A DNA stretch of 64,000 nt from Bacteroidia bacterium. GTDB taxonomy: Bacteria; Bacteroidota; Bacteroidia; UKL13-3. Position numbers and translations under genes: made by a program. The notes beneath the pieces are model-generated. The model worked only from the letters and a program-made list of their open reading frames with translations. It made no database searches and was not told the DNA's origin. Shown in pieces: positions 41,439 to 63,924 of this stretch. The stretch spans positions 644,409 through 708,408 of the forward strand of contig JAKLJI010000001.1 in assembly GCA_023151275.1 (NCBI GenBank), read 5' to 3'. Each line of letters begins with the position of its first letter. The first letter of the stretch is position 1.

Positions 41439-44400
41439 TTAGTTACCTGTAACCGTAAATCTCAGGTAAGCTGTTTGTCCTTCTTGTTCATGCAAAATTA
41501 CCATGTACTGGCCCGGACTTAATTGATGGCTTGAAACCTCGATTAACTTATCAGTTGTATTCAAATTTACCTCGGCATCCATTACTCTTCCTAGTAAGTC
41601 AATAACCTGGATTCGGGTATTTTTAGTGAGGTATTTGCAGGCAATCTTAAAGCTACCGGTGGTTGGATTCGGGAACAACACGTATTCATTGGTTTCTTTC
41701 ACTCCTGCAACAGCAAGTCCGGTTGCTGCAGAACCCGGAGTTTTCATGCTCATATCTACCACATCTTTATGAGGGAAATAGGTAGCCACCGGGCGTGAGT
41801 AACTGAAACAAGTTCCACCAACTACTTGAATATTCATGCTGGCTGTATCGCGGCATCCATCTGCTGAAACAACAACCAAACGAACGGTATAGAATCCTGC
41901 ACTCAGGTATTTTTTATTGAAGATGTAGGAATGGGTTGAATCGATGGTACCATCACCCAAATCCCAATAAAACTTATTAATCCATCCACTACCTAAGAAA
42001 ATGCTGTTGTTGTAGAAATTGTAGGAATTTCCTGTTAAACACTGCACCGGATTATCAGTATTGAATGAGGCCGATGGGCCATGTGCCTGACCAGGAATAT
42101 ACACTTGGGTTGAAGAGGTGCTTGAGCAACCAGTGCTATCAAATACAGTAAGCATTACATTGAAGTAACCTGTGTCTGCATAACCTTTATTTGGATCTTT
42201 TTGAGTGGAAACGCTTCCATCTCCAAAGTTCCACAAATACGATGATGCTGAACCAGAGCTGATATTGAAGTATTGAATTTTGTTGTTACATGGACAGTTG
42301 CAATAGGTGGTGCGGTAGTAGAATCCGGCGTTTAGATTTCCTGTGCCCGCAGCAATTGTCACCGTATCTTTTACTTCAACCGAACAACCCGAAGTATTGC
42401 TTAAAGTGAGCGTTACAATATAATCACCATTGGCACTGTAGGTATGTGAAGTAACTTGTCCAATGGCAGAATCCATTGCCGAACCCGGATCTCCAAAATT
42501 CCAATGGTAACTAAATCCATTTGCTGCTTGAGCAGAGAATACCGCCGATTTTGAACAAGCCGTGGTATCCCAATAAATACTTCCACTTGGGATATCTTGA
42601 ATAATAACCACTTTAGAAAGTGAATCATAACAAGCGCCATTTCTAGCTACCAATGCAATTACATGCGATCCTGGCAATGCTCCACTAAATGAATAATTCA
42701 AGGCACCTGAAACAGGAACACCGTCCCAATACCAGCTGTACCAGGTTGAATTGGTTGACAAGTTTGACGTAATCACGGTATTTGAACAGCCAGTAACGTT
42801 TACATTGAAGGCTGCTTTTGGCAATAAGCCATTTATTCCCAATGGAGCTTTCACATATTGGGTATCTGCATCCCAACAAGAACCACCGTTTGATGCTATC
42901 AAAATCACCTGATAAATGCCAGCAGGATTGTATGCATGAGCAGGATTAACTGCATTGGATATTGGAGAACCATCACCAAAATACCAGGTATAGGTTCCAC
43001 TTCCTGTGCTCAGATTATTGAATTGGATGGCATTTGAGCAAGGAATGGTATCCCAGGTAAAATCGGCTACAGGACGTGTGCCACGGGTTGCCATTAAACC
43101 ACGGTAAATTTCAGCGCGACAACCATTGTTATGAACACCTTCTAGACGAATAAACTTCCATCCTTGTGTGGTATAACTGTGGTAAATGGTATCGGCATTA
43201 TTCTCTTCAAAGAAATTGTCTCCAAAATCCCAGAAATGGGTAAGCGAACCGGTTGAATGATTTACAATGGTAACGTCCATTCCGCAGGCTGCATCTGCTG
43301 TAAAATCAAGCATTGGCGATGGAAGTACATGAACCGTGCTGTAAGCGGTATCACGGCATCCATTGCTTCCAAATCCAATCAAACGAACCACATAGGTTCC
43401 TGCTGTATCATATTGCTTATTGAAAGCAAAGGTGTTCACCAAGTCCTGCGTTCCATCTCCAAAATCCCAATGGTAGTTCATGGTCCATCCATGTCCAACA
43501 AAGCTGGAATTGTTGATGAAATTAAAGCTATTGCCAAACAAACATTGCTCATCATCCAATGGAGCAAAGGTTACCAATGGTCCACCAGAACTGCTTCCAA
43601 TAGTTACCAATTGGGTGAGCGTATCGTAACAATTGGTGCTTGAACGGGCTACCAGTTTAACAGGATATACACCAGCAACAGGGTAAGATTTGCTTGCATC
43701 TTTCAATTGAACAACTGTGCCGTCGTGGAAAATCCACCAATAACAATTGTCATCGTGCGGTGTACCAGTTGAAGTATTCGTAAACTTCAAGCGGGTTACG
43801 CAATTGCCAGCCAAGGGAGCATAGGTAAAGTTGGCCGTTGGTTGAATTCCCAAAGACTGAACATGTACTACACGTGTAAAGGTGTCTGAACAAAGGTTTG
43901 AATCAGTAACATACATCTTCACGGTATAGGTTCCATCCATTGGATAAACAAAACTTGGATTGCTTGAAGTTGAACTATCTGTTGAAACGGCAGGCACGCC
44001 AAAATCCCAATAAACACTATCTGTTCCTAAAGTATGATTATTGAATTGAATCAATCGGGTACAACCCAATGAATCGTATCCAAAGGCTGCTTCCACTTTA
44101 GGTGCAACATGAATTGGCTTGGTTATAGTATCAAAACACATACCGTTGTTGCGAACAATCAAGGTTACATTATAATCGCCGGGACCAAATTCATGCGTGT
44201 AATCTGCAGTTGAATTGGTACAATAGAAGCCATTGCCAAACTGCCATTCAAAATCGTTGGCAAACTCAGAGTTATTATGGAAGGTTATTGTTCCATCGCA
44301 ATTGCGGGTGTAATTAAAATCAGCAACTGGAGGTCCTGCATAAACAGTTTTTGTTACAGAGTCTTTGCATCCATAAAAGTTGGTTCCAACCAATTTTACC

Positions 44401-47400
44401 GAATAAGAACCACTTGTTGGGTAATTGTGCGATGTACTTGAATCGGTACTTGTATTTCCATCGCCAAACGACCATAGGTAATTAATAGATGGAGCATTTG
44501 CGCTGCTGGTATTGGTAAAGCTGAACAGATTACCTGGCAAACACTGAACCGGGTTGTTGATGCTGAAGTCGATTGTTGGAGGTGTTCCTAATAAAGCAAC
44601 ATTCAAGGTATTTGAGTAGTTGGATGTACAGCCCCCTGAATCAGTAACGGTAACTTTATAGGCGCCAACTGCATTCGCAATATAGGTTGATGTTGTTGCC
44701 AACGGAATTGCTACACCATCTTTGTACCATTGGTAGGTATAATTAACTCCTGTTGTTGATGTCAAAATGGTTTGTCCTCCCGAACAGATACTTGTGTTTC
44801 CACTGATGCTTGTGGCGGCAACCGAACAACGGTATCCGGCATCCAAAGTTGGATTATGCCTGTTAACACCCGTATTTACAATAAGATTCATAGTGAAAAC
44901 CGGACTAAATCCGCTTGCCTGATTGGCATCGCTATTTCCATTTACGCCTGCCGAAACATTTTGAGTTGTTAAGGTTTTAGTTGAATAATTCAACGGAAAC
45001 TGAACCTGATATTGAGCGCTTTCATCGATAATGAAATTGTAATAACCCGGATTTCCTGAACCATCATTGGCTGTAAGGGTTGAATCAATCAACTCCATAC
45101 CGGAACCCATATTTCTCCACAAATAAACTTTCAATCCGTTAATGCCGGAAGATGGACCATCGTTTTGCAAGCCATCTTTGTTGGTATCAACCCAAAGGTA
45201 GTTTCCAATACTTCCCAAGGGGTAATAACCTGCATCTATAGTTGTGTTGTCTTTATCTACTCCAGTTCCTGAAGCATCAATGGTAACCAAACCGCTGGTG
45301 CCAGTTAAATCGGCATCGTTATTCCCATTGATTTGAGGCGCCTGATTGCTGGTAGTGGTAAGTAGGTAATTGTTGTAACCCGTTGGGAATTTCACATAGT
45401 ATTTTCCACTGGCCAATTCAATGAATTTATAATAGCCGGGATTTCCATAAAAATCATTCGCCGAAACAGTTGAATCAAGCAATACATCATCACCCCCACC
45501 AATCGCATTATCCGGACCTGCGCCATACAAATAAAGTTTCATGCCATTCAATCCAAGGCTTGCGGCTTCATCTTGCAGACCATTTTTGTTGGCATCAATC
45601 CAGACATAATTGCCCAATGAACCCAATACTGGCGTACAAGTAGTGCGCATTCCAACCATAATCGGTGTAGTTGGTAAGAGCTGTGAACTATTATCTGCCC
45701 TTGAAACCTGATACATAATACTGTTATTCATGAGCAGGTTAACCGGAGTTCCAACAGGAGCGCGCATAGGCCAACTCAATACAATACTGTCCAATGCAGG
45801 TAATACAGCAGAACGTGTTACTTTAATGGCTTTTACAGTTGTAATATCCAAGGGTGGTGTACTTGTCCATACCGGATTTGTACAACCCGGAGGATTGCTT
45901 GCCGGCGTAAAATCGGCAAAACATGGATTTGGCGTTGTTGTATAATAAACAGTCGAAGATGGATCGTTGATAGTAACAGGTCCTACCAAATTGGCAAACC
46001 ATTGGGAACCGCGGTAATCACCAATGAATGGAAACACATCCACCATTACCAAATCTTTAGCAGCCACGTTACCCAGGTTTTTCAAGGTAATTTTATAATT
46101 CACCGGACCTGCTTCCTGAGCAATGGCAGTGGTTGGATAATACACATATTCTGGATCGCAACCGGTTTGTCCTTTGTAAGCGCGCAAAGCCACTGCACTA
46201 ATTACAGACACATTTGCATTGTCGGTACCACCATTGAATAAACCATTATCGCTTTCCAACCAAGCTTTATTGGTAATTGAAGCCGGTGGTGTTCCAGGTG
46301 TGATAACGGCATTGAAGCGAATTTTGTAGGTTTTTCCAGTTAGCAAAGTACCCAAGATATAGGTCAATACCTGACGATTGGAAGGGCTCAGCGTAGTAAT
46401 TGTTGGCGTAATAACCGAACCGGTATTGTCGATAAGGTAAAATGATGTTCCAGGCACATAAGTTAACCGTGCATCCAAGGTATCCGTAATTGTAACATTC
46501 GTTGAGTTTACATTACCGCCTAAATAGGTACTAAATTCATAATACACGGTATCACTTGCTCTTAAGCTGGAGCTTGAATTGCGAATGGACTTGCCCGTAA
46601 ATCCAAATACGGGTTGGGCAATCATGATTTCGGCCGAACCATTACAAGCACTGTAGGCAGTTTGAACATTGTTAAAGAAGAATGAACCTGTAGAATTGTT
46701 TGTAACTACCGTTCCATCGTCACCCACGTTTGAAGGATTGTAAGTGGTTCCTTCTACAATTGGACTTCCATCTTTAGCACCTAATGCTGCCGTGCGTGAA
46801 TCGCCGCAGTAACTCAAATCTTGTGAGCCACCAATTGGCAAGGGTCCATGAATTTTAAATTTAACTTGAGTTACGTATTCACCCGGAGGCAAACTTACCG
46901 GAATATTCAGAGTACCTCCACTCATTGCGGCTATTGCACTCGAAAGATAAGTCCCTGCACTTGTGAATCCATTTAAATTGGTTGCATAAAACACCTCAAT
47001 TGAAGCTTCAGCTATGGAATCAAATCCATCCACAACCGGACGAACCCGAATGGTAGAAAAATCGATGCTTTTATCTACAGTATAAATCAATTCCGCACTA
47101 TCCACTTCTGTATTGCCTGAATTGTACCAACCGTTGGAAAACCAGTTACAACTAGTGCCAGGAAGAATATGCTTGTTCATCCAATGGGCTGTTGCAGCAG
47201 TAATACCACCACCATAACAGGATACTCCTGGACTAGGTGATTGAATGGAAAAACAAGCTTGTGCTGATTTACCAAATGCTGCTCGTGAACCTATGGGCAG
47301 AGCCGGACTCTCACCAAATAAGTTTATCTTGTTACATACATTATCCGAAACAGCAAAGGTTGGCGAAGTATAACGCACACTAATATATGCCGATGAAGAA

Positions 47401-48191
47401 TAATTGGTTCGGAATGAATCTGCAAGCCAAGTCCAAGTTACGGTGCGCGTAAGTGCATTGTAAACCGGAGCTGTTGAACCCGAAAATCCTGTGGCTTCTA
47501 CAAATTCAACACCCAATGGTAATGTATCCACCAAAACAGGTTGATAGGTTATCAAGGATCCATTCGAAGGACTTGAACCGGATACATTAATGCGGTAAAT
47601 GGTTAGATTATCAATTGCACCGCCTGCTAGCTTTGTTTTTGAAATGTTATGCTGATTGGAAGCAGTTGCTGTTACATTTAAAATATTCGACAACACCGGA
47701 CCTGTTCCCCCTCCAGGATTTAAATTATTATCGGCATCAATTGAAGCAAACAAATCCGGGGCATACCCATTGGGGGTGCTACCATTCAGGTAACGAAAAC
47801 GGATTTGCAACTGACCTGTACTTCCGGCCGGAATTGGATTTACAAAAGTTACAGTAATTGCATTCTGGCCACTGTTGTAAGTTACGCCGCTAACTTGTGA
47901 TGGATCAAATTCAACTGAATTACTAAATGGACTTGTACTCGCCGGAACCAAATTCTCCGGAAGATTCAGGGTGGCAACTACATTCTGTCCATTCGTGGTA
48001 AAACTGGAAACCTGGTAATTCAAGGTATAAATAAACGTTGAACCTGTTGAAACAGTAGATGGCGAAACTGAAGCCGATAGACCAAGCTCAACTTGGGCAT
48101 TTAGGCCTCCGGCAATTACGCTTAGCAAAAAAGCCAGAGCTATTCTTGGGTTCACAAAAAATTTGCGAACACCGAAAAGTATACTTTTCAT
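41439..48191 (-). CDS. Giant secreted adhesin-like protein with DUF11, SdrD-B, Ig and many PKD domains and a T9SS sorting domain
   Basis: About 2250 residues from MKSILFGVRKFFVNPRIALA (long signal sequence ending in GGLNAQ); the frame allows five more codons. N-terminal third: DUF11-like repeats (STGSTFIYTLNYQVSSF; PVNYKITLKNLGNVAAKDLV). Then two SdrD B-like modules (GNYVWIDANKNGLQDEA; GNYLWVDTNKDGLQNDG), one Ig-like module (CSGGQTILTSTTGVNYTYQW), and about ten PKD modules with the F-G-D-G core (LWSFGDGNTSTDSSTSHNYP; YLWNFGDGSVSTQKDPNKGY). Many modules carry a paired cysteine. It ends with a type A sorting domain (YVLFPNPTTGSFKIACK, LSPGQYMVILHEQEG). Expected to be surface-exposed after Sec and T9SS export, probably in adhesion or gliding. 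A small secreted-protein gene lies just upstream. Confidence 0.88.
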   Translation of the reverse strand: MKSILFGVRKFFVNPRIALAFLLSVIAGGLNAQVELGLSASVSPSTVSTGSTFIYTLNYQVSSFTTNGQNVVATLNLPENLVPASTSPFSNSVEFDPSQVSGVTYNSGQNAITVTFVNPIPAGSTGQLQIRFRYLNGSTPNGYAPDLFASIDADNNLNPGGGTGPVLSNILNVTATASNQHNISKTKLAGGAIDNLTIYRINVSGSSPSNGSLITYQPVLVDTLPLGVEFVEATGFSGSTAPVYNALTRTVTWTWLADSFRTNYSSSAYISVRYTSPTFAVSDNVCNKINLFGESPALPIGSRAAFGKSAQACFSIQSPSPGVSCYGGGITAATAHWMNKHILPGTSCNWFSNGWYNSGNTEVDSAELIYTVDKSIDFSTIRVRPVVDGFDSIAEASIEVFYATNLNGFTSAGTYLSSAIAAMSGGTLNIPVSLPPGEYVTQVKFKIHGPLPIGGSQDLSYCGDSRTAALGAKDGSPIVEGTTYNPSNVGDDGTVVTNNSTGSFFFNNVQTAYSACNGSAEIMIAQPVFGFTGKSIRNSSSSLRASDTVYYEFSTYLGGNVNSTNVTITDTLDARLTYVPGTSFYLIDNTGSVITPTITTLSPSNRQVLTYILGTLLTGKTYKIRFNAVITPGTPPASITNKAWLESDNGLFNGGTDNANVSVISAVALRAYKGQTGCDPEYVYYPTTAIAQEAGPVNYKITLKNLGNVAAKDLVMVDVFPFIGDYRGSQWFANLVGPVTINDPSSTVYYTTTPNPCFADFTPASNPPGCTNPVWTSTPPLDITTVKAIKVTRSAVLPALDSIVLSWPMRAPVGTPVNLLMNNSIMYQVSRADNSSQLLPTTPIMVGMRTTCTPVLGSLGNYVWIDANKNGLQDEAASLGLNGMKLYLYGAGPDNAIGGGDDVLLDSTVSANDFYGNPGYYKFIELASGKYYVKFPTGYNNYLLTTTSNQAPQINGNNDADLTGTSGLVTIDASGTGVDKDNTTIDAGYYPLGSIGNYLWVDTNKDGLQNDGPSSGINGLKVYLWRNMGSGMELIDSTLTANDGSGNPGYYNFIIDESAQYQVQFPLNYSTKTLTTQNVSAGVNGNSDANQASGFSPVFTMNLIVNTGVNRHNPTLDAGYRCSVAATSISGNTSICSGGQTILTSTTGVNYTYQWYKDGVAIPLATTSTYIANAVGAYKVTVTDSGGCTSNYSNTLNVALLGTPPTIDFSINNPVQCLPGNLFSFTNTSSANAPSINYLWSFGDGNTSTDSSTSHNYPTSGSYSVKLVGTNFYGCKDSVTKTVYAGPPVADFNYTRNCDGTITFHNNSEFANDFEWQFGNGFYCTNSTADYTHEFGPGDYNVTLIVRNNGMCFDTITKPIHVAPKVEAAFGYDSLGCTRLIQFNNHTLGTDSVYWDFGVPAVSTDSSTSSNPSFVYPMDGTYTVKMYVTDSNLCSDTFTRVVHVQSLGIQPTANFTYAPLAGNCVTRLKFTNTSTGTPHDDNCYWWIFHDGTVVQLKDASKSYPVAGVYPVKLVARSSTNCYDTLTQLVTIGSSSGGPLVTFAPLDDEQCLFGNSFNFINNSSFVGHGWTMNYHWDFGDGTQDLVNTFAFNKQYDTAGTYVVRLIGFGSNGCRDTAYSTVHVLPSPMLDFTADAACGMDVTIVNHSTGSLTHFWDFGDNFFEENNADTIYHSYTTQGWKFIRLEGVHNNGCRAEIYRGLMATRGTRPVADFTWDTIPCSNAIQFNNLSTGSGTYTWYFGDGSPISNAVNPAHAYNPAGIYQVILIASNGGSCWDADTQYVKAPLGINGLLPKAAFNVNVTGCSNTVITSNLSTNSTWYSWYWDGVPVSGALNYSFSGALPGSHVIALVARNGACYDSLSKVVIIQDIPSGSIYWDTTACSKSAVFSAQAANGFSYHWNFGDPGSAMDSAIGQVTSHTYSANGDYIVTLTLSNTSGCSVEVKDTVTIAAGTGNLNAGFYYRTTYCNCPCNNKIQYFNISSGSASSYLWNFGDGSVSTQKDPNKGYADTGYFNVMLTVFDSTGCSSTSSTQVYIPGQAHGPSASFNTDNPVQCLTGNSYNFYNNSIFLGSGWINKFYWDLGDGTIDSTHSYIFNKKYLSAGFYTVRLVVVSADGCRDTASMNIQVVGGTCFSYSRPVATYFPHKDVVDMSMKTPGSAATGLAVAGVKETNEYVLFPNPTTGSFKIACKYLTKNTRIQVIDLLGRVMDAEVNLNTTDKLIEVSSHQLSPGQYMVILHEQEGQTAYLRFTVTGN

Positions 48192-48216
48192 GTAAAAATT
48201 AGTCAATAGGTAAAAA

Positions 48217-52518: not shown

Positions 52519-53262
52519 TTATGTCAAGCTCAATAGCCAATTAATCAGCATACCCACGACAATCGAAAACGCATAACTTATCATAGTTCCTACCAATACG
52601 TATTCACTGCGAAGTCCTTCTTCTTTTTGGGCAAAACGAATAATGCTTTTCCCGGTTATCAAAAAACCAATGGCCTCGTATTTATTCAGGTAAACAAAGC
52701 TTAGAATTATGATGCGTTCAAATATTCCTATAAGCTTCCCGCCTTGCTCTATTTTTTTATTGCTCGTGCCCTGAGTTGTTTTATCAATCCCCTTCAACAC
52801 AAATTTCATAGCATAAGCCAATGGCCATGTCACCAAAACATAACCCAATAACAATAGGCTTATTGAATAGCTCATAGTTACCTTTACTACCGCATTCAAT
52901 AAGTGAACCCAGATGCCTTCAAATGCAACCCAGATGAAAAGAACACTCAACAGGTGAACAAGTTGGTCACCGAAAAATAAGTATGTTTCTTTTCCTGATA
53001 TTTTTCCTTGCAGGCTACATTTCATGCTATCAATTATCCAATGAATAAAGGCTATTGATAACGCAATTTTCAAAGAAAAGCTAAGTAGGAATGAAACAAT
53101 GAATACAATACCAATATGCAGCAACATCTGTTTAGAGAACCACTTTTTGTTGGCCACCATGGAATTGGTTTGAAACACAAAATCAGCGAGCAAATGGGAA
53201 AGCAATAACCGAACGAACAGACTTCCTTGCTCCTGGGTAAAAAAGACCAATTCAGTTTTCAT
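52519..53262 (-). CDS. DUF3307 integral membrane protein, partner of SatD
   Basis: About 247 residues from MKTELVFFTQEQGSLFVRLL; a longer frame overlapping satD is less likely. There are around six hydrophobic helices. DUF3307 signatures are LLLSHLLADFVFQTN (His23, Asp27), FIHWIIDSMK (His74, Asp78), LFFGDQLVHLL (Asp99, His103), and the C-terminal GKLIGIFERIIILSFVYLNK and YEAIGFLITGKSIIRFA. The conserved His and Asp residues face helices, suggesting a metal site or ligand site in the membrane. It begins 11 bases after the satD stop on the same strand, so they form an operon. DUF3307 and SatD genes are neighbours in other genomes, from memory. Function unknown. Confidence 0.85.
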   Translation of the reverse strand: MKTELVFFTQEQGSLFVRLLLSHLLADFVFQTNSMVANKKWFSKQMLLHIGIVFIVSFLLSFSLKIALSIAFIHWIIDSMKCSLQGKISGKETYLFFGDQLVHLLSVLFIWVAFEGIWVHLLNAVVKVTMSYSISLLLLGYVLVTWPLAYAMKFVLKGIDKTTQGTSNKKIEQGGKLIGIFERIIILSFVYLNKYEAIGFLITGKSIIRFAQKEEGLRSEYVLVGTMISYAFSIVVGMLINWLLSLT

Positions 53263-53273
53263 CTTGACTGCAA

Positions 53274-53945
53274 CTAATCGTTGTAAATAGCTTCGAAGCG
53301 CTGAACCAGTGATTGTATCGCAATCCAACCTCCGTTATTCGACCTTTGATTCACAGCAGACTGGGCTATTCCAAGTTTTTTTGCTATCTCAATTTCTGTA
53401 TATCCAAGAAGTTTTAAATTAATCACCTCGCATTGCAATGCACTGTTTCTTGCAAGAATAAAATCAAGCAGAGTACACTCTGTTTCCAACTCAGAATTAT
53501 ACGCGTCGTTCACACTTATCCCAATACTCTGCTTACTAGCCTTTAACTGATCAAGTTTTCTACCGGATAATAGGAAGGCTTCCCCATTTGCCTTTCCAAG
53601 AGATTCTGTTTCATCTTCACCTTCCCCTATTCCAAGTGCTATGCGTGTATCAAATAGCCAAACCGGATATAACATAGCCGTTTTTTTTGCCAATTTAAGC
53701 TCATTTGCTTCATTCGAATAAAGGCTTTTAATAAACGTTTTAATTAAAAGTGTAACTCTTAATGCATGAAACGGGCTTTCCAACAAGCACTGAAAACTAT
53801 CTCCTCTGTATATTTCATAGTGCATGTTATAATCCGTACTCCAGATCTTCAAAGCAAAATCAACTTCTTCCATTAACTTCTTTCTTCGTAGAGCATCCAT
53901 TTTAGTTGATTGTACAATATCTCCGGTAATTACTGCTTTTTTCAT
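53274..53945 (-). CDS. SatD family protein with cyclase-like N-terminal half and C-terminal HTH
   Basis: 223 residues. The N-terminal part reads AVITGDIVQSTKMDALRRKK, then YEIYRGDSFQCLL, RIALGIGEGE, and GKANGEAFLLSGRKLDQL. The order and spacing (D-I-V-x-S/T, G-D-x-F, R-I-x-x-G-x-G-E, G-x-A-x-x-x-A..L) resembles the class III nucleotide cyclase core, with Asp9 and Asp49 at the metal-ligand positions. This is my own motif reading, not a known assignment. The C-terminus (about 171-205) is a sigma-70-region-4-like HTH (NLKLLGYTEIEIAKKLGIAQ, SAVNQRS). The name comes from the streptococcal sat operon. It is followed by the DUF3307 gene and preceded by palindromic repeats that the HTH may bind. Confidence 0.8.
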   Translation of the reverse strand: MKKAVITGDIVQSTKMDALRRKKLMEEVDFALKIWSTDYNMHYEIYRGDSFQCLLESPFHALRVTLLIKTFIKSLYSNEANELKLAKKTAMLYPVWLFDTRIALGIGEGEDETESLGKANGEAFLLSGRKLDQLKASKQSIGISVNDAYNSELETECTLLDFILARNSALQCEVINLKLLGYTEIEIAKKLGIAQSAVNQRSNNGGWIAIQSLVQRFEAIYND

Positions 53946-53977
53946 ACGTACTAATTAATTGCAATATAAGTTTATTA

Positions 53978-54105
53978 GCTATTAATAGCATTATAAGCTG
54001 TAAGACTTATACTAACATATTATAAGCCCTATGACTTATAATGACACATTATAAGGCCTACGACTTATAATAACACATTATAAGCCTTATGACTTATACT
54101 GTAAT
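53978..54105 (-). promoter_or_regulatory. Array of four 29-bp palindromic repeats upstream of satD, plus adjacent palindrome
   Basis: Four head-to-tail 29-bp units at 53990, 54019, 54048 and 54077. Each has ATTATAAG, 8 bases, CTTATAAT (or CTTATACT), then a 5-base linker. Arms are perfect inverted repeats in units 2 and 3. A 12-bp perfect palindrome GCTATTAATAGC (53978-53989) adjoins the satD-proximal end. The array ends 45 bases before the satD ATG, so binding would block or activate its promoter. Unit length gives nearly three helical turns, placing sites on a similar face. It is probably an operator for the SatD HTH or another regulator. Confidence 0.75.
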
Positions 54106-54448
54106 ACATGTAAAGTACCTGGGTTTTTGAGATGCCACTACAAGCGTTACACCTTATACCTCTTTGAGTTAGCCCACTACGCTCTGGTCCAAAGAAATGG
54201 TTCTTCTTTATTACTTTTTTGAAAAGTCAATCTAAAAAAACCTTATCAACTCCAGTACTTGTTGTTATAATCCATTCGGTTATTCCTGTTTTCTCCAACT
54301 TATTGAAACCAAAAAGGTCAAATCTCGTGCAGGTTAAAGGCATCTAAATTTCAGACAATCTATGCCATCCTTATCCTTAAGGGATTTTAGTTAACTACCA
54401 GGATCAGCAAAACCCAAAAACACTCCACAAGCCTTGCAAAGGCTCTAG
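54106..54448. other. 343-base non-coding interval
   Basis: No gene or clear terminator seen. It follows the operator array and separates it from the convergently oriented DUF2062 gene end. A short stretch at about 54166-54245 reads in the plus strand like a serine/lysine/phenylalanine-rich peptide without a start, probably chance. Confidence 0.5.
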
Positions 54449-57913: not shown

Positions 57914-58648
57914 TCAAGCCAACAGGTGCTCTAATTTCATTTTCCACTTTTCCCAGTCCTTCATTTCCTTGTTCTGTAAATCGAAAAATTTCTGCGTATG
58001 GTCGTGATGGATTAAATGACAAAGTTCATGTATAATAACATACTCAATACAGCCCTTAGGAGCCTTTATCAACTCCGGATTTAAAATGATCTTGCCTTTG
58101 TCCGTACAACTGCCCCAGCGTGTCGGCATTTTTCTGAGTGAAAAATTAAAAGTGATAAGTGATAAGTTATTTTTTCTAATGAATTCATCAAAAAGGCTTT
58201 CAGCTAATGGTCTTATTTTTTCTTTTGCTTTTTCAAGATACCAACTTTCAACTAACTCCTGAACCCTCGAAGTATCTGATGTTAGAACTTCCAGAAATGC
58301 TCCCTTCAACTTTACAGTTTCATCCTTAACTTTTTGCTTTTCACTAATCACTTTTAGCCTGTATTGCCGGCCCAAATACAAATGGGTTTCACCACTTCGG
58401 TATTTACGTTTTGGTGTTTTGGGTTGAAAGTTTAGAAAAAAACTTTTTTGCTTAATTATCCAAGGTGCCTTTTTTCTGATTTTCTCTTTTACTTTTTCAA
58501 TGGATGCATTTATAGGTGCCTTTACCAATACTTCCATTTCAGGTGTTACCGTAATGCCAAGTGATTTTCTGTCTGAAAATTCCAGACGAAAGTCTATCTG
58601 CTTACTCCCAAATTGAATATAGTCTATTTCTGAAACAACCTCATTCAT
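57914..58648 (-). CDS. YgjP-type M48-like metallopeptidase (DUF45)
   Basis: 244 residues. The metal-binding motif is VIIHELCHLIHHDHTQKFF (His207, Glu208, His211, His217), preceded by the family segment KMPTRWGSCTDKGKIILNPE. A single zinc-dependent peptidase domain, cytoplasmic. Genes of this family are often placed beside type I restriction hsdR genes, as here, and may assist or regulate the restriction complex. The start codon lies in a 14-bp tandem repeat that separates it from the hsdR stop. Role in restriction is inferred from context. Confidence 0.85.
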   Translation of the reverse strand: MNEVVSEIDYIQFGSKQIDFRLEFSDRKSLGITVTPEMEVLVKAPINASIEKVKEKIRKKAPWIIKQKSFFLNFQPKTPKRKYRSGETHLYLGRQYRLKVISEKQKVKDETVKLKGAFLEVLTSDTSRVQELVESWYLEKAKEKIRPLAESLFDEFIRKNNLSLITFNFSLRKMPTRWGSCTDKGKIILNPELIKAPKGCIEYVIIHELCHLIHHDHTQKFFDLQNKEMKDWEKWKMKLEHLLA

Positions 58649-58703
58649 AACTCATCATTCATAACTCATCGTTCATAACTCATAACTCATCATTCATAAC
58701 TTA
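58641..58703. repeat. 14-bp tandem repeat at the hsdR/ygjP-like junction
   Basis: Units TCATTCATAACTCA, TCATTCATAACTCA, TCGTTCATAACTCA, a 7-base half unit TAACTCA, then TCATTCATAACTTA: about 4.5 copies. The hsdR stop (58694-58696) is inside the last unit and the metallopeptidase start (58646-58648) is inside the first. On the minus strand each unit contains an ATG and a TGA in different frames. Confidence 0.85.
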
Positions 58704-61700
58704 TATCTCAACTTCGCCACTTCAATACAATCTTCTGCAATCTTATCCATGTCTTTGAATGACAAGTCAACTTCGTATTTGTCTCGTACTTCATCAATCA
58801 GGTAATCCCCAATTTCAATAAGTAACTTACCTGTTATATTGGTTTTGTATTGCCAGTCAATAATGGGTTTACCATTATCTAAAACCGAAGATTGAATCAA
58901 TTCATCAATTTCTATTGCTGTTTGAATGGATACCTCCTTACGCAAACGATCATCCTTTATTTTTTCGCTTAAGGCCTCAATGGTCAATCCATAAAAAGCT
59001 TTTGCTATATCCTTATCTTTCAACTGCTCCGGAATATCCGTGTCTGTATGGGCCAAAACGCTGTCCATGATGTCTTGGACTCTGCTCAGATACTGGGCTT
59101 CGCTGATTCTTTTAGCTTCATAATCAGCAATGGTTTCCTTTAGCATTTGAGAAAACTTTTTGTAAAATGCCGGATCCTCATCCATTTTCTCCGTAATATG
59201 TTTAGCGGTTCTACTTGCTATTTTATCCGCTTTAGCCGCTTTACCTGTGGTATTTTCTACTTCTTGTTGAAATTTATCCTTATCGAAAATGTTTACCAAT
59301 GCTGTGATGGTTTCAATTTTCTCAGTAGTAATGTGGGTATCAATCAGCTTTTGAATTTGCCCTTCGTATTGTTTGTAGTCAATTTCATCGCTGTATCTTT
59401 CAACAACAGCCAAACGCAATTTCAAGAACATGGCCAAATCTTCTTTGTAACGATTGATTACCTTTTCTTCTACTTCCCTATGGAACTGGATAGAAGATAA
59501 TGCCAATTTCAAAGCTTTTGCAAAAGCTGCCAGTTTATCGTAAAACAAAACCCGTATTGCTTCATCTTTCAATACTTGCTGATAGGCTTCTGCATCTCGC
59601 TTATTGGATATGTTTTTAAAAATATCCCAAAGTTCAGCGTGCTTTTGGGGTAGCTTTTTAATTTCCTCCGACATGTTTACCAGGGTTCCTTCCAGATCCT
59701 CCTGATCAAAATCCTCAAATGAGGAATACATCTGCAATGCATCGTCCAGATTCTCTATTACACCATAATAGTCAATGATGTAGCCAAATTCTTTGTCAGG
59801 AAAAACCCGATTTACACGTGCAATGGCTTGAAGGAGTTTATGTCCCTGCAAGTTCCTGGTTAAGTATAAGACTGTATTCTTGGGTTCATCAAAGCCAGTG
59901 AGCAGTTTATCGACAACAATAATAATTTCAGGGTCTTTCTGATTTTTAAAACGACTAATGATGTTCTTTTCGTAGGTTTTTGAATTGCCGTGTTCGTCCA
60001 TCATTTTTTTCCAAAATCGATTTACGCTTAGGTTCGATTTTTCATAAACACTTTCTTCTCCTTCTCTTTCATCAATCGAAGAGATTAACACTTCACTGCT
60101 TACTATTCCAATTTCATCCAGGTACTCTTTATACTTGATTGCGTTAATTTTTTTATCACAAACCAATTGACCTTTAAAGGGTGTTTTTCCTTGCCAATTG
60201 CTTCGAAAATGATAACTAATATCCCAGGCAATCATCCGCATCTTTTGTTCCGCAGAATTCAAATGGTCGTAACGCGCAAACTTCTTTTTAATGTCGGCTT
60301 TTTGATATTCGGTTAACGGCTCAGCAACCATTCCGAAAAATGTATCAATGGGACTCGCATTTACTTGCTGAACTGCCAATCTGCCCTCATATAACAATGG
60401 AACAACTGCTTTATCTGCTACGGCATCTGTTACGGTGTAGGGATCTCCTATTAACCCACCAAACTTAGCAGCTGTGCTCTTATCCTTTTTAAACAAAGGA
60501 GTTCCCGTAAAGGCCACAAAGCAGGCATTGGGTAATGTTTTTTGCATGTCTATATTAAATATTCCATGCTGTGTCCTATGACCTTCATCTACCAGAACAA
60601 AGATGTCATGACTTTCTAAGGGTTGATTGATTTTTTTTACCGCCGCCACAAATTTGTTGATAATGGTAGTAACCACTGCATCGCTTTTGCTTTCCAGCAA
60701 ATCAACTAACCGTTGTCCGGTGCTTGCGTTTTCTACAAACTTGCCACACTTTCTGAATGTGCTGGTAATTTGATTATCCAAATCGGTTCTATCTGTTACC
60801 AACACTATTTTCGGATTGCGAATACTTGGTTCCATAGCAATCGCCTGAGCCAACATTACCATCGTTAAGGACTTTCCACTTCCTTGTGTATGCCAAATTA
60901 CGCCTCCCTTTCGTTTGCCGTTCTCCACTTTTCTTATGCGTTGCATGGATTTTTTAATGGCAAAAAATTGCTGGTATCGTGCTATTTTTTTATCTCCATT
61001 ATCAAACAAAATAAAATTGAAAACGATATCTAACAAGCGCTCGGGCTGACATAAACCAAACAAATAACGGTCTTGTTCGGTTGGCAGAATTTCATCTTGT
61101 TCGAGTGCTTCAAAATAATGTCGGACATAATTGAAGCGATCTGAAAACAATTGTTCTTTTACTGAATTTGAAAGTGCCGTGTTCTTCAGCTCTTTTAACT
61201 TTTCATTGTACGCTGTTAACTTGTCATTTCCATCAAATTTCTCCTGCCATTTAGCCCAAAACTTTTCCGGCGTGGCGTTGGTTGCATAAGCCGCTTCTTG
61301 TGTGGCAATGCTCAAATTGAGTTGCGAATACACATACAAACTTCTGATTCCGTCTTCTTGCTGGTTGCGTAAATGCTGACTGATCGCCTGTTTCAAGGGC
61401 TCTTTCATATCTGGTCGTTTGCACTCAATAATGCAAAGTGGAATACCATTGACAAATAAGACCAAATCGGGGCGGTAATGCTCTTTACTTGTACTTCGCA
61501 TTACACTGAATTCTTCGCTTACATGAAATACATTGTTACTGATGTTTTTCCAGTCGATGTATTGCAGGGTAAAGCTCTTTTTGTCGCCATCTACACTTTG
61601 CTCCAATGCCTGACCCAAGGTGAGCAGGTTATACGCCCTTTCACTGGCTGCAATATAGCCTTCATTCATGGGCAGGTTTTTCAAAGCCAAAATACCCCGT

Positions 61701-61927
61701 TCAATATTTTCGTCTGTGAAAATGCTGGTTTTAGTTGCACTTACCCGTATGCAGTTGATTTCCTTCAGTTGTTTACGCAACACATCTTCCAGCAAAACAT
61801 TGGTGGTTTTACCACCTCTTTGTCGGTCAGCTTCTGCCGGACTCAAATAGGTATAACCCAAATTCACCAACATTTGCAATGCCGGAATCTGGCTGATATG
61901 GTCTTCTTTAAAGCTAGGTGTTTCCAT
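58694..61927 (-). CDS. hsdR: Type I restriction enzyme R subunit (HsdR)
   Basis: 1077 residues. The N-terminal PD-(D/E)xK nuclease has Asp154 (YRPDLVLFVNG) and E168-x-K170 (LCIIECKRP). The superfamily 2 translocase has Walker A GGVIWHTQGSGKSLTMVMLA (GSGKS 349-353), motif II VDEGH (Asp447-Glu448), motif III AFTGTPL, motif V LLTGFDEPKNTVLYLTR and motif VI QAIARVNRVF. With HsdM and HsdS it translocates and cuts unmodified DNA. No hsdM or hsdS gene is seen here; they should lie past the right edge on the minus strand, upstream of the AlbA_2 gene. It is a complete, intact gene with no visible frameshift. Confidence 0.95.
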   Translation of the reverse strand: METPSFKEDHISQIPALQMLVNLGYTYLSPAEADRQRGGKTTNVLLEDVLRKQLKEINCIRVSATKTSIFTDENIERGILALKNLPMNEGYIAASERAYNLLTLGQALEQSVDGDKKSFTLQYIDWKNISNNVFHVSEEFSVMRSTSKEHYRPDLVLFVNGIPLCIIECKRPDMKEPLKQAISQHLRNQQEDGIRSLYVYSQLNLSIATQEAAYATNATPEKFWAKWQEKFDGNDKLTAYNEKLKELKNTALSNSVKEQLFSDRFNYVRHYFEALEQDEILPTEQDRYLFGLCQPERLLDIVFNFILFDNGDKKIARYQQFFAIKKSMQRIRKVENGKRKGGVIWHTQGSGKSLTMVMLAQAIAMEPSIRNPKIVLVTDRTDLDNQITSTFRKCGKFVENASTGQRLVDLLESKSDAVVTTIINKFVAAVKKINQPLESHDIFVLVDEGHRTQHGIFNIDMQKTLPNACFVAFTGTPLFKKDKSTAAKFGGLIGDPYTVTDAVADKAVVPLLYEGRLAVQQVNASPIDTFFGMVAEPLTEYQKADIKKKFARYDHLNSAEQKMRMIAWDISYHFRSNWQGKTPFKGQLVCDKKINAIKYKEYLDEIGIVSSEVLISSIDEREGEESVYEKSNLSVNRFWKKMMDEHGNSKTYEKNIISRFKNQKDPEIIIVVDKLLTGFDEPKNTVLYLTRNLQGHKLLQAIARVNRVFPDKEFGYIIDYYGVIENLDDALQMYSSFEDFDQEDLEGTLVNMSEEIKKLPQKHAELWDIFKNISNKRDAEAYQQVLKDEAIRVLFYDKLAAFAKALKLALSSIQFHREVEEKVINRYKEDLAMFLKLRLAVVERYSDEIDYKQYEGQIQKLIDTHITTEKIETITALVNIFDKDKFQQEVENTTGKAAKADKIASRTAKHITEKMDEDPAFYKKFSQMLKETIADYEAKRISEAQYLSRVQDIMDSVLAHTDTDIPEQLKDKDIAKAFYGLTIEALSEKIKDDRLRKEVSIQTAIEIDELIQSSVLDNGKPIIDWQYKTNITGKLLIEIGDYLIDEVRDKYEVDLSFKDMDKIAEDCIEVAKLRYKL

Positions 61928-62208
61928 TATTTTTCGTTTTTAGAGAACCGGATGCCCAATTCAGAGAATTGAAATTTATCGGTGCCGAAACCAATACAGA
62001 GAATCCAAAGCCCAATACAGAGAATTGAAACCCAGGCAAACAGGTTTTTAACACTTTGATATCCAGCACATTTAAGTGTTTACGCATTGCTAGCACTATC
62101 TCTAGCAGCTGCAATACAAAGAATAGCACCATCGCTTTCAGCATCTTCTTTAGCTCCTTTATCTTTAGCATACAGAGAATCATTAACGGCATATAGACAA
62201 TTAGCTGC
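61928..62208. repeat. 281-base spacer with imperfect 20-base repeats in the restriction locus
   Basis: Between the AlbA_2 gene and hsdR. Similar units occur at 61954-61974 (GCCCAATTCAGAGAATTGAA), 61990-62010 (ACCAATACAGAGAATCCAAA) and 62011-62031 (CCCAATACAGAGAATTGAAA), with weaker partial copies nearby. A 100-residue minus-strand frame across it reads as repeat-derived FSVLGFGFSVLV sequence with no recognised family, so I treat it as non-coding. A degenerate small gene in the spacer cannot be excluded. Confidence 0.55.
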
Positions 62209-63924
62209 TTATTCATATTTACCCCTTAGTTCTGCTATAACTGCACTTAGTAAAACATCACCTCTTAAATCCGCATACTTATCAGCAATAGAATATCGGG
62301 CACCCTTTATTTTTCCTTCTACTTTCAGTACTTTATCTTCCATCAGTTTCATCTTTAAATAGTTTATTTGATTTCTTGACAGGGATTCTTTCAGTAAATC
62401 TTCTAAATCGCCAATCTTCAAAGCATTTCCTTGCAATGCCAGCAGAATGAGTTCTATCTCTTTTACCAAATATCTTTTGCCAATTTTCAAGCCGTCATTT
62501 ACCAGTGCATGGTATTCTTGCGATAAAGTATAGCGATTGGTATGTCCTGAAATTTTTTCGATTAACCCTGATTTTTCTAACTGGCTTACAATTTCGGCTT
62601 TCAGGTTTTGGAATATGCCGTTCCGAATTTTGCAAAGCGTAATAATTTGTTCTACACCCAACTTGGGTTCTTTCTCGCTGTTTTGGTATTGGCTTACGAA
62701 AACATGAAATGCTTTGTCAATAATTTCAGTCCGTAGGGTAAGCGAAACCTGAAACATATCCGAATTTTTGTAGTCTGGTTCGGCTTTCCCTTCAGATAGG
62801 GTGATGGAAAATATCTTATCTACACCCTGTCCGCTGCGTTCTACTAAGCCAGTCTTTTCCAGAATTTCGGTCATTAAGCGGCTTCGGGGTGTACTGCTTA
62901 CTGTGAGTATATTTTCTATAGTTACGCCTTTAGGAAAACCTCCCGGGTTGGTTATTGTGATTTTGCTGGGATATTGCTTTACAACCGCTTCGCTGGTAAT
63001 GGTATAATCTCGGTGAGCAATGGCATTGAGTACGGCTTCACGAATTACTTCTTCATTAAAATCATACAAATCAAAAATATAAGCTCCCGACAGAATGGGA
63101 TATTTTCGGTTGAGTGTGGGTTGATTAATGAGTTTCCAAAGGCTGTCAATGGCTATAAATAAAGGTTCATCAATTACTTCACGGCTATCGTGGTGTATTT
63201 GTGCTTCGCTGTTGCGAAACTCCCAAATGGTTTTGCTTTGGGGAAGTTTAGCATGAATCACTTCTTTTTTAGCTAATAAAATTAAGGCAGCATAGGTGAG
63301 TTTACCGTTGTCGAGTAATTTCAAATCGGTTAAAACTTGTTCGGTACTGAGTTGCAAAAAGCCCGGATTTTTTTGTTTACGGGCATAGCTCTCTTTCATT
63401 TTCTTGATGGCTGCTTCATCTAAATCGGCTATGCTGATGCTTTCGCAAAATTTGGCCGAGAAATCGGGTTCTTGTTCTGAAAGTATGGCAAACATTTCTT
63501 CATCACTCATATTGCGTAGACTTTCACCAACCCTCATCAATGGTACTCCTTCAAACTTCATCATCTTACCAACGGGTCTTGGCGGAATATGAGCAATCAA
63601 AACCCGCAATCCATTTTCATAGAGTTCCTCCATGCGAACCCTGATGCCCAAACGACTATAGGTTTCATCTTCTAAAGCTCCAATCTTGCCTTGTGCAAAA
63701 TCACTGCCTACCACATCATGTGGGGCTTTATCGGCCATGCCTAAAACCAACATGCCGCCACCTTCATTAGCGAATGCCACTACATAACCCAAAAAGCACC
63801 TGCGTCTCTCTTCTTGTTCCTTATGTTCGCTGCCGGCATAAGAGAAGTTGTGCGTGGCTGCTTTAAACTCAACCTTGTCTTCACTTTCCTTGAGCTGTAT
63901 TAATTCTGTTATTGTCATAAGCAT
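62209..63924 (-). CDS. AlbA_2 (Schlafen-like) ATP-binding protein in the type I restriction locus
   Basis: 571 residues. The N-terminal AlbA_2 domain contains ESEDKVEFKAATHNFSYAGS, VVAFANEGGGMLVLGMADKA and RVLIAHIPPRPVGKMM. The middle has a GHKL-like ATPase segment (EEVIREAVLNAIAHRDYT; SRLMTEILEKTGLVERSGQG) and winged-helix regions toward the C-terminus (LVNDGLKIGKRYLVKEIELI). These proteins are often embedded in type I restriction operons between hsdS and hsdR, and are suggested to act as regulators or extra defence factors. The start is at 63924 or two codons later (63918). Upstream genes are cut by the window end. Confidence 0.85.
   Translation of the reverse strand: MLMTITELIQLKESEDKVEFKAATHNFSYAGSEHKEQEERRRCFLGYVVAFANEGGGMLVLGMADKAPHDVVGSDFAQGKIGALEDETYSRLGIRVRMEELYENGLRVLIAHIPPRPVGKMMKFEGVPLMRVGESLRNMSDEEMFAILSEQEPDFSAKFCESISIADLDEAAIKKMKESYARKQKNPGFLQLSTEQVLTDLKLLDNGKLTYAALILLAKKEVIHAKLPQSKTIWEFRNSEAQIHHDSREVIDEPLFIAIDSLWKLINQPTLNRKYPILSGAYIFDLYDFNEEVIREAVLNAIAHRDYTITSEAVVKQYPSKITITNPGGFPKGVTIENILTVSSTPRSRLMTEILEKTGLVERSGQGVDKIFSITLSEGKAEPDYKNSDMFQVSLTLRTEIIDKAFHVFVSQYQNSEKEPKLGVEQIITLCKIRNGIFQNLKAEIVSQLEKSGLIEKISGHTNRYTLSQEYHALVNDGLKIGKRYLVKEIELILLALQGNALKIGDLEDLLKESLSRNQINYLKMKLMEDKVLKVEGKIKGARYSIADKYADLRGDVLLSAVIAELRGKYE

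Follow-up and report, generated by a model that had tools for sequence, protein, structure and literature searches.

In mycobacteria, large multidomain cyclase-NTPase-LuxR HTH proteins carry a class III cyclase fold and an HTH in one chain. In Pycsar, a class III cyclase (PycC) is paired with a membrane effector (PycTM), and in Panoptes the mCpol protein OptS is paired with OptE, the synthase restraining the effector according to the excerpted text of PMC12657218. We studied a locus formed by satD, a gene for a DUF3307 membrane protein and a palindromic array, located in a 64,000-nucleotide stretch of a Bacteroidia bacterium genome (the window, i.e., the whole stretch that was analysed). The locus resembles Pycsar in being a two-gene unit with a class III-type palm and a membrane partner, and a Pycsar system physically adjoins one SatD-DUF3307 copy, on a Sphingomonas insulae plasmid. 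It differs in that SatD has an HTH and a putative operator array and no PADLOC match to PycC, and in that DUF3307 is polytopic with about 250-350 aa, whereas the PycTM beside it has 167 aa. With Panoptes it shares the combination of a small palm-domain protein and a membrane protein, and the Cas10 palm was among the VIA-align matches of SatD at tied Z (see below); however, OptS is Cas10-like and makes cyclic dinucleotides, whereas the best Foldseek rows of SatD were class III cyclases and SatD carries an HTH in addition. Pfam and PADLOC, libraries in which the presence of mCpol and S-2TM-beta models is uncertain, gave no match of either kind for the window proteins. The mycobacterial proteins have the union of cyclase fold and HTH in common with SatD, and we know of no paired DUF3307 or phased operator array in them. 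The SatD family itself (PF16264) is that of the S. mutans sat operon. The likeness to it lies in the relatives of the window SatD, 20 of 29 matching at E 0.5 or less and 6 of 10 tested passing the family cut-off, and the difference in the window protein, which remained below that cut-off (14.5 bits vs 29); it was assigned to the family because its relatives match PF16264. Among the literature matches listed, mostly other uses of 'SATD', no published mechanism for SatD, DUF3307 or their pairing was found.

The two genes are co-directional in the negative strand, with 11 nt between the SatD stop and the DUF3307 ATG. The two-gene operon, the position of both aspartates in SatD and the four-unit palindromic repeat upstream, all read from the sequence in the original prediction, were borne out (Table 1). 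The window DUF3307 cleared the PF11750 cut-off (60.7 bits vs 23) and had no Pfam matches other than DUF3307 and a weak DUF2061. Elsewhere in the window, a 2255-aa repeat-rich and probably secreted protein was noted by eye at 41439-48206.

Table 1 Features of the SatD-DUF3307 locus in the window
Feature	Position	Strand	Size and basis
DUF3307 membrane protein, His/Asp/Gln cluster	52519-53262	-	247 aa; PF11750, conservation, all-helical model
SatD gene, nucleotidyl-cyclase-fold palm and C-terminal HTH (predicted)	53274-53945	-	223 aa; predicted structure, profile matches, relatives matching PF16264
SatD palm domain, residues 1-148 (beta-alpha-beta-beta-alpha-beta-alpha-beta)	53502-53945	-	AlphaFold2 secondary structure; PDB profile and fold matches to class III cyclases
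Asp9 codon, near end of strand 1, putative metal ligand	53919-53921	-	conservation
Asp49 codon, hairpin of strands 2-3, putative metal ligand	53799-53801	-	conservation
SatD HTH helices, residues 184-204	53334-53396	-	model helices 184-191 and 195-204; weak Sigma70_r4/HTH profile matches; half-site covariation
SatD recognition helix, residues 195-204	53334-53363	-	AlphaFold2 model
Degenerate proximal unit near SatD start, 27 bp from unit 1	53965-53984		read from sequence
Array unit 1, TATAAG-N8-CTTATA, putative SatD operator	53992-54011		exact site
Array unit 2, TATAAG-N8-CTTATA	54021-54040		exact site
Array unit 3, TATAAG-N8-CTTATA	54050-54069		exact site
Array unit 4, TATAAG-N8-CTTATA	54079-54098		exact site
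Degenerate distal unit, one mismatch, 60 bp beyond unit 4	54139-54158		sequence scan

SatD is predicted with high confidence to consist of a nucleotidyl-cyclase palm and a C-terminal HTH. The AlphaFold2 model, built on a 66-sequence alignment, had a mean pLDDT of 93.1 and a pTM of 0.90, and its elements follow the order strand-helix-strand-strand-helix-(helix)-strand-helix-strand and then helices. A PDB sequence-profile search with 29 SatD relatives had Ma1120, a class III cyclase, as its top match (E 6e-4 to 1e-3), the alignment pairing DI..ST of SatD with DI..ST of Ma1120 and RGD with QGD; class III cyclases were also the best rows in Foldseek (E 3e-5). In VIA-align, cyclases, Cas10, GGDEF and GTP cyclohydrolase III were tied at Z scores of about 10-11, and GTP cyclohydrolase III superposed at 2.5 A over 115 residues with 19% identity. 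Comparison by hhalign with class III cyclases of the same phylum was modest, with a probability of 68% (P 5e-5) for 6 sequences and 50% (P 2e-4) for a larger set, and stops near residue 108. A fold unrelated to cyclases had been named as a refuting outcome, and the cyclase resemblance held to be perhaps coincidental, when only motifs were at hand; at the fold level AlphaFold2, the PDB profile, Foldseek and VIA-align agree that it is not a coincidence, the predicted fold being a nucleotidyl-cyclase palm.

In the model, strand 1 (residues 2-11) has Asp9 close to its end, and Asp49 sits in the turn from strand 2 (41-46) to strand 3 (50-55), a layout that matches the single-acid hairpin arrangement described for the active site of nucleotide cyclases in passages of PMC2904730. 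Both residues, whose conservation was proposed as a check on the cyclase idea, are kept throughout: Asp49 in 117 of 117 SatD sequences and Asp9 in all 112 aligned, the remaining 5 of the 117 having it upstream of the chosen start. Arg47 (115/117), Gln52 (116/117) and Gly128 (117/117) are likewise kept. From the fold and the two aspartates, SatD likely has a metal-nucleotide site.

The catalytic set of class III cyclases also comprises a base-specifying Lys/Glu and a transition-state Asn/Arg. The corresponding places in SatD were judged at positions 45, 125 and 129 by motif counting; the hhalign alignment has a gap beside the first catalytic place and is unreliable past residue 108. Counted from the GD motif, the base-binding Lys place holds Ile in 99 of 117 sequences, with uncertain residue equivalence. 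By motif match, and with the same uncertainty, Asn is outside the eight commonest residues (111/117) at the transition-state place when no gap is allowed and is found in 14/117 if the match is shifted by one, and the place for the catalytic Arg holds Arg in 47/117. Arg47 (115/117) might serve in place of such a residue. With no clear sign of the class III catalytic residues other than the aspartates, a classical cyclase reaction by SatD is not assured. These places, under their uncertain equivalences, weigh against the reading in which SatD is catalytically active, as a nucleotidyl cyclase or synthase, and its product directly gates DUF3307 in the manner of Pycsar or Panoptes, with the array setting dosage only. 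PADLOC gave no match for SatD or DUF3307 either, for the window proteins or those of three other loci (L193, L194 and L199). Such an enzyme would agree with the palm fold and its single hairpin Asp as in nucleotide cyclases (passages of PMC2904730), with the layout of synthase plus membrane protein known from Panoptes (excerpts of PMC12657218), and with the copy that adjoins a Pycsar system; on balance we consider it unlikely.

The pairing of SatD with DUF3307 is nearly obligate. DUF3307 was found directly behind SatD in 115 of 117 loci (34/34 from the genome search, 78/80 GTDB contigs and 3/3 viral contigs), where the genome-search and GTDB sets overlap in genomes and the 80 GTDB loci are the best 80 of at least 561 relatives; the genetic linkage on which the original prediction depended is thus real. 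One SatD locus (L058) has a tRNA-synthetase-like gene in the place of DUF3307, as judged by eye. Another (L051, 2966-4364) has SatD and a four-unit 28-bp array, and a lysophospholipid-acyltransferase-like gene, identified by eye, overlaps SatD and replaces DUF3307, a possible partner exchange. In 296 genomes of the phylum, SatD was present in 73, DUF3307 in 77 and both in 72, i.e., about a quarter of the sampled genomes carry the pair; SatD was alone in G073 and DUF3307 alone in G059, G099, G152, G173 and G296. Identities of the SatD palm and of DUF3307 correlated over 57 loci (Mantel r 0.55, p 0.001). The pair also occurs on enterobacterial and other plasmids: 17 distinct records of the plasmid collection matched, and all 12 that were fetched had it (Vibrio, Segatella, Enterobacter, Pseudomonas, E. 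coli, Klebsiella, two Salinivibrio, two Pseudoalteromonas, Sphingomonas and Fusobacterium). Copies were further seen in assemblies named Methanolobus and Methanomethylovorans (L085, L086), which would be archaeal.

The DUF3307 model is all-helical (pLDDT 92). The conserved His/Asp noted at the outset in the membrane protein proved to belong to a near-invariant His/Asp/Gln cluster, H23, D27, Q31, H49, H74, D78, D99, Q100 and H103 each being kept in 113-114 of 115 sequences, and this cluster is probably a metal site. Foldseek gave no PDB match for DUF3307 below E 2.7; a fold assignment from VIA-align was dropped because its rows, among them many channel or pore domains, did not exceed Z 5.8, which is chance level. 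Phages encode the DUF3307 N-terminal domain alone, with 119-131 aa (BFVD A0A1L7N193, A0A7G7WXF7 and A0A8S5PQC1), possibly as a decoy or counter-measure. A search of 50,697 phage records with the window SatD was empty at E 0.01, three IMG/VR contigs carried a relative, and a viral origin of the pair was not supported. In one of these contigs (L118, 6795-14103), inspected by eye, XRE- and IrrE-like genes precede SatD-DUF3307, and lysis- and terminase-like genes follow; it is a probable prophage copy and its array has a TGGCCG half-site with a 29-bp spacing.

In the original prediction the array served as context; of all parts of the mechanism, it now has the best support. In the window it comprises four perfect units with a strict 29-bp period (53992-54098). 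Of the 5 places at which the 3.9-Mb genome has the exact 20-bp site, 4 form this array, so that the clustering is not due to chance. In the 160-bp SatD upstream regions (107 distinct sequences), self-match was highest at lags 28 and 29: either lag 28 or lag 29 was the best of 48 lags in 75 of the 107, as compared with 28 of 490 control upstreams, taken from the other long ORFs of these loci, and identity of at least 0.65 at lag 28/29 was reached in 48/107 vs 2/490. The half-sites vary by lineage (TATAAG, TATCGT, TATTAG, TATAAC, ATCAAC, TGCAAC, TATTCC and others), so that across the phylum the geometry of 28/29-bp palindromic units is conserved and the sequence is not. Gammaproteobacterial arrays are of the same kind, with three perfect units at 28 bp in Vibrio and two at 29 bp in Enterobacter; weaker pairs in the E. 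coli plasmid pEC34A, Salinivibrio and Pseudoalteromonas each exceeded all 20 shuffles, and the signal in Fusobacterium was marginal. No array was found in the scan of three plasmid loci (L192, L194, L199), and the fixed 28/29 scan gave no convincing array before SatD in family f38 (L023, L031, L032, L034, L035) and in others with low scores. With a cut-off of 8.8 in that scan, chosen after the scores were known, 89 of 117 loci had confident arrays, 58 after removal of relatives more than 60% identical.

We compared SatD residues with half-site bases in these 58 loci (below 60% SatD identity). Of 1134 column-base pairs, the six with the strongest mutual information were all at residues 195-201, in the recognition helix region; among 189 SatD columns, 195, 200, 196 and 201 ranked first to fourth, column 32 fifth and 197 sixth. 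Shared descent inflates such scores, but it should act on all SatD columns. Gln195 accompanied A at half-site base 2 in 49 of 49 loci, against 0 of 9 with other residues; Gln196 went with C3 (7/7), Lys200 with C6 (14/16, vs 1/42 without Lys200), and Asp, Glu, Gly or Asn at 200 with C4 (13/14 vs 2/44). At less than 45% identity (n=34), columns 195, 201, 197, 194, 200, 196 and 193 were the first seven. The signal was thinner at n=22, with column 195 first and 103 second (Q195-A2 17/17 vs 0/5; K200-C6 3/5 vs 1/17). Outside the 58 loci, the five proteobacterial types with some array signal (L191, L193, L195, L197/L200 and L212) have, by eye, a Lys where the helix corresponds, and C is the last base of the consensus half-site in 4 of the 5, in L212 only if shifted by one base; their spacers differ from those of Bacteroidota and were left free in the scan, which makes this check support and not proof. 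Because half-sites covary with its recognition helix, SatD is very probably the protein that binds the phased array before its gene, following readable helix-to-half-site rules that come close to a code and make its DNA binding directly testable from sequence.

The array positions also bear on how SatD may act. In passages of PMC7366714, TAnnTTTG is the -7 element of Bacteroidetes promoters. This motif starts inside an array unit in 16 of the 58 arrays, 13 of these hits being at one offset where the outer arm gives the first four bases; the other 42 have no exact motif starting inside a unit. Anywhere in the upstream region it was found in 31/58, vs 12/58 when read backwards. Motifs beginning inside the units favour repression by promoter blocking, and SatD may thus repress the operon, as suggested by this operator/promoter overlap alone. 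A genome-wide SatD regulon was not supported, as isolated exact sites in seven scanned genomes were no commoner than the reversed control. The window genome had 12 one-mismatch hits per strand (reversed pattern 23) in addition to its single exact site outside the array. Of the other six, G017 had one exact site outside the SatD locus, G054 two (the isolated site on contig 2 overlapping an ORF end) and G166 one, together with a duplicated four-unit array; G216 and G158 had none and G281 no exact site at all. The seven genomes together thus held five single sites and one duplicated array outside SatD loci, and the reversed control over the six others gave 13 per strand; one genome scan used the 29-bp spacing, by which 28-bp arrays are missed. 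Since no wider regulon appeared in these genomes, the main target of SatD seems to be its own operon, with DUF3307 as the output.

The best explanation, which we hold to be rather probable, is that SatD is a nucleotide-responsive autoregulator controlling a membrane output, DUF3307. The C-terminal HTH would bind the half-sites of the array before its own gene, each palindromic unit taking one symmetric SatD dimer and neighbouring units placing further dimers at steps of 28/29 bp; the symmetric dimers in which class III palms act suit one unit per dimer, and the row of units would suit cooperative binding. Array-bound SatD would repress the satD-DUF3307 operon, and the palm, holding a metal-nucleotide through Asp9/Asp49, would set DNA binding by its nucleotide state. 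As the output, DUF3307 would be a membrane protein that carries a His/Asp/Gln site, probably a metal site, and is so potent that it must be tightly controlled. The module would travel as a cassette and most likely help cells or plasmids resist phages or other stress. This proposal draws on the computed fold, aspartates, gene pairing, array geometry, helix/half-site covariation and mobility, to which it would add repression by SatD, nucleotide control of SatD, an effector role of DUF3307 and a part in defence. If the palm gates DNA binding, nucleotide signalling and transcription would be joined in one small protein.

SatD-DUF3307 is a widespread mobile pair. The E. coli plasmid pEC34A (3,770 bp), typed as mobilizable, lists Rop, MobA, one small hypothetical ORF and SatD-DUF3307 in its gene table, which is incomplete; in that table the pair is the only annotated cargo, the small ORF apart. 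The 1.78-kb DNA of pEC34A was found in five 3,770-bp Klebsiella plasmids (99.7-100% identical where aligned) and, at 91% identity, in a 4,424-bp plasmid. For three of these five plasmids, the best match takes in 51-93% of the query and runs up to the record end, probably because it crosses the record start. There was no match to the pEC34A or Enterobacter stretch in 5,426 E. coli genomes. Such carriage, as almost sole cargo of a 3.8-kb plasmid with an incomplete gene table, would also be expected of a toxin-antitoxin-like addiction cassette stabilising plasmids or islands, with SatD as antidote and autorepressor and DUF3307 as membrane toxin. The overlap of the array with its own promoter in some loci agrees with it, as does satD of S. 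pyogenes, accessory (178/249) yet essential in transposon data according to excerpts of PMC11323703. Against it, L058 has SatD without DUF3307 behind, and phages encode the N-domain alone with no match to the window SatD in phage records, so that this domain is not obviously lethal. We regard an addiction cassette as a tentative possibility, below even odds.

For the autoregulator that we favour, a defence role is plausible, judging from some of its neighbours. The original prediction of a defence module found agreement in plasmid contexts: the Enterobacter plasmid has GajA and GajB (Gabija) upstream of the pair with an IS3 transposase between, and in that of Sphingomonas insulae the pair lies between GajA/GajB/ThsB and the PycTM/PycC system. 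Salinivibrio and other plasmid-collection copies sit among ordinary genes, and chromosomal contexts gave little. In the window, the type I HsdR gene (58694-61927) is 4.6 kb from the array. HSDR_N was within 10 kb of SatD in 3 of 76 genomes (G000, G138, G166), compared by eye among the matches listed, where about 0.8-0.9 were expected (P 0.051 for 165 matches to about 0.06 for 176); within 50 kb there was no excess (5 vs 4.1 expected). HsdR proximity is not above chance at conventional significance, and chromosomal defence-island enrichment was not clearly supported. Scans of 122 of the 151 genes picked around 38 loci found 132 Pfam families, none in more than 4 genes, and the PADLOC tally was topped by type I restriction genes (4/122). 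Separately, the HsdR gene of the window belongs to a cluster (57914-63924) that also has a YgjP-like metallopeptidase and a 571-aa protein partially matching PADLOC.

Such varied chromosomal neighbours would suit a housekeeping homeostasis unit for metal, pH or lipid, in which SatD senses the nucleotide energy state and tunes DUF3307 as a transporter or membrane metalloenzyme. Excerpts of PMC11323703 and PMC10326533 link the S. mutans sat genes to acid tolerance, in the same direction. A housekeeping function is nonetheless hard to reconcile with patchy presence (3 of 35 genomes of the bacterium's own family), with plasmid carriage and a viral contig with phage-like neighbours, or with two plasmid copies beside known defence genes, and we find it doubtful.

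Within the autoregulator model, an accessory-yet-essential satD, as excerpts on S. pyogenes report it, fits a gene restraining a harmful partner, and that riddle would become testable as restraint of the partner. A more specific version, improbable in our estimate, would make SatD sensor, antidote and transcription factor at once: nucleotide-loaded SatD would coat the array and keep DUF3307 low, and a phage that drains or sequesters the nucleotide would cause SatD to release, DUF3307 to rise and the membrane of the infected cell to break. If this were true, the pair would amount to a guard system that has an operator array for its readout, and drifting operator specificity would prevent cross-talk between co-resident copies.

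As to the duplicated array of G166 (L209, 6217-17388), the SatD array and leader are repeated about 11 kb apart, and between the two copies lie a type I HsdR (PF04313 match) and genes that look, by eye, HsdS/HsdM-like and AbiE-like.
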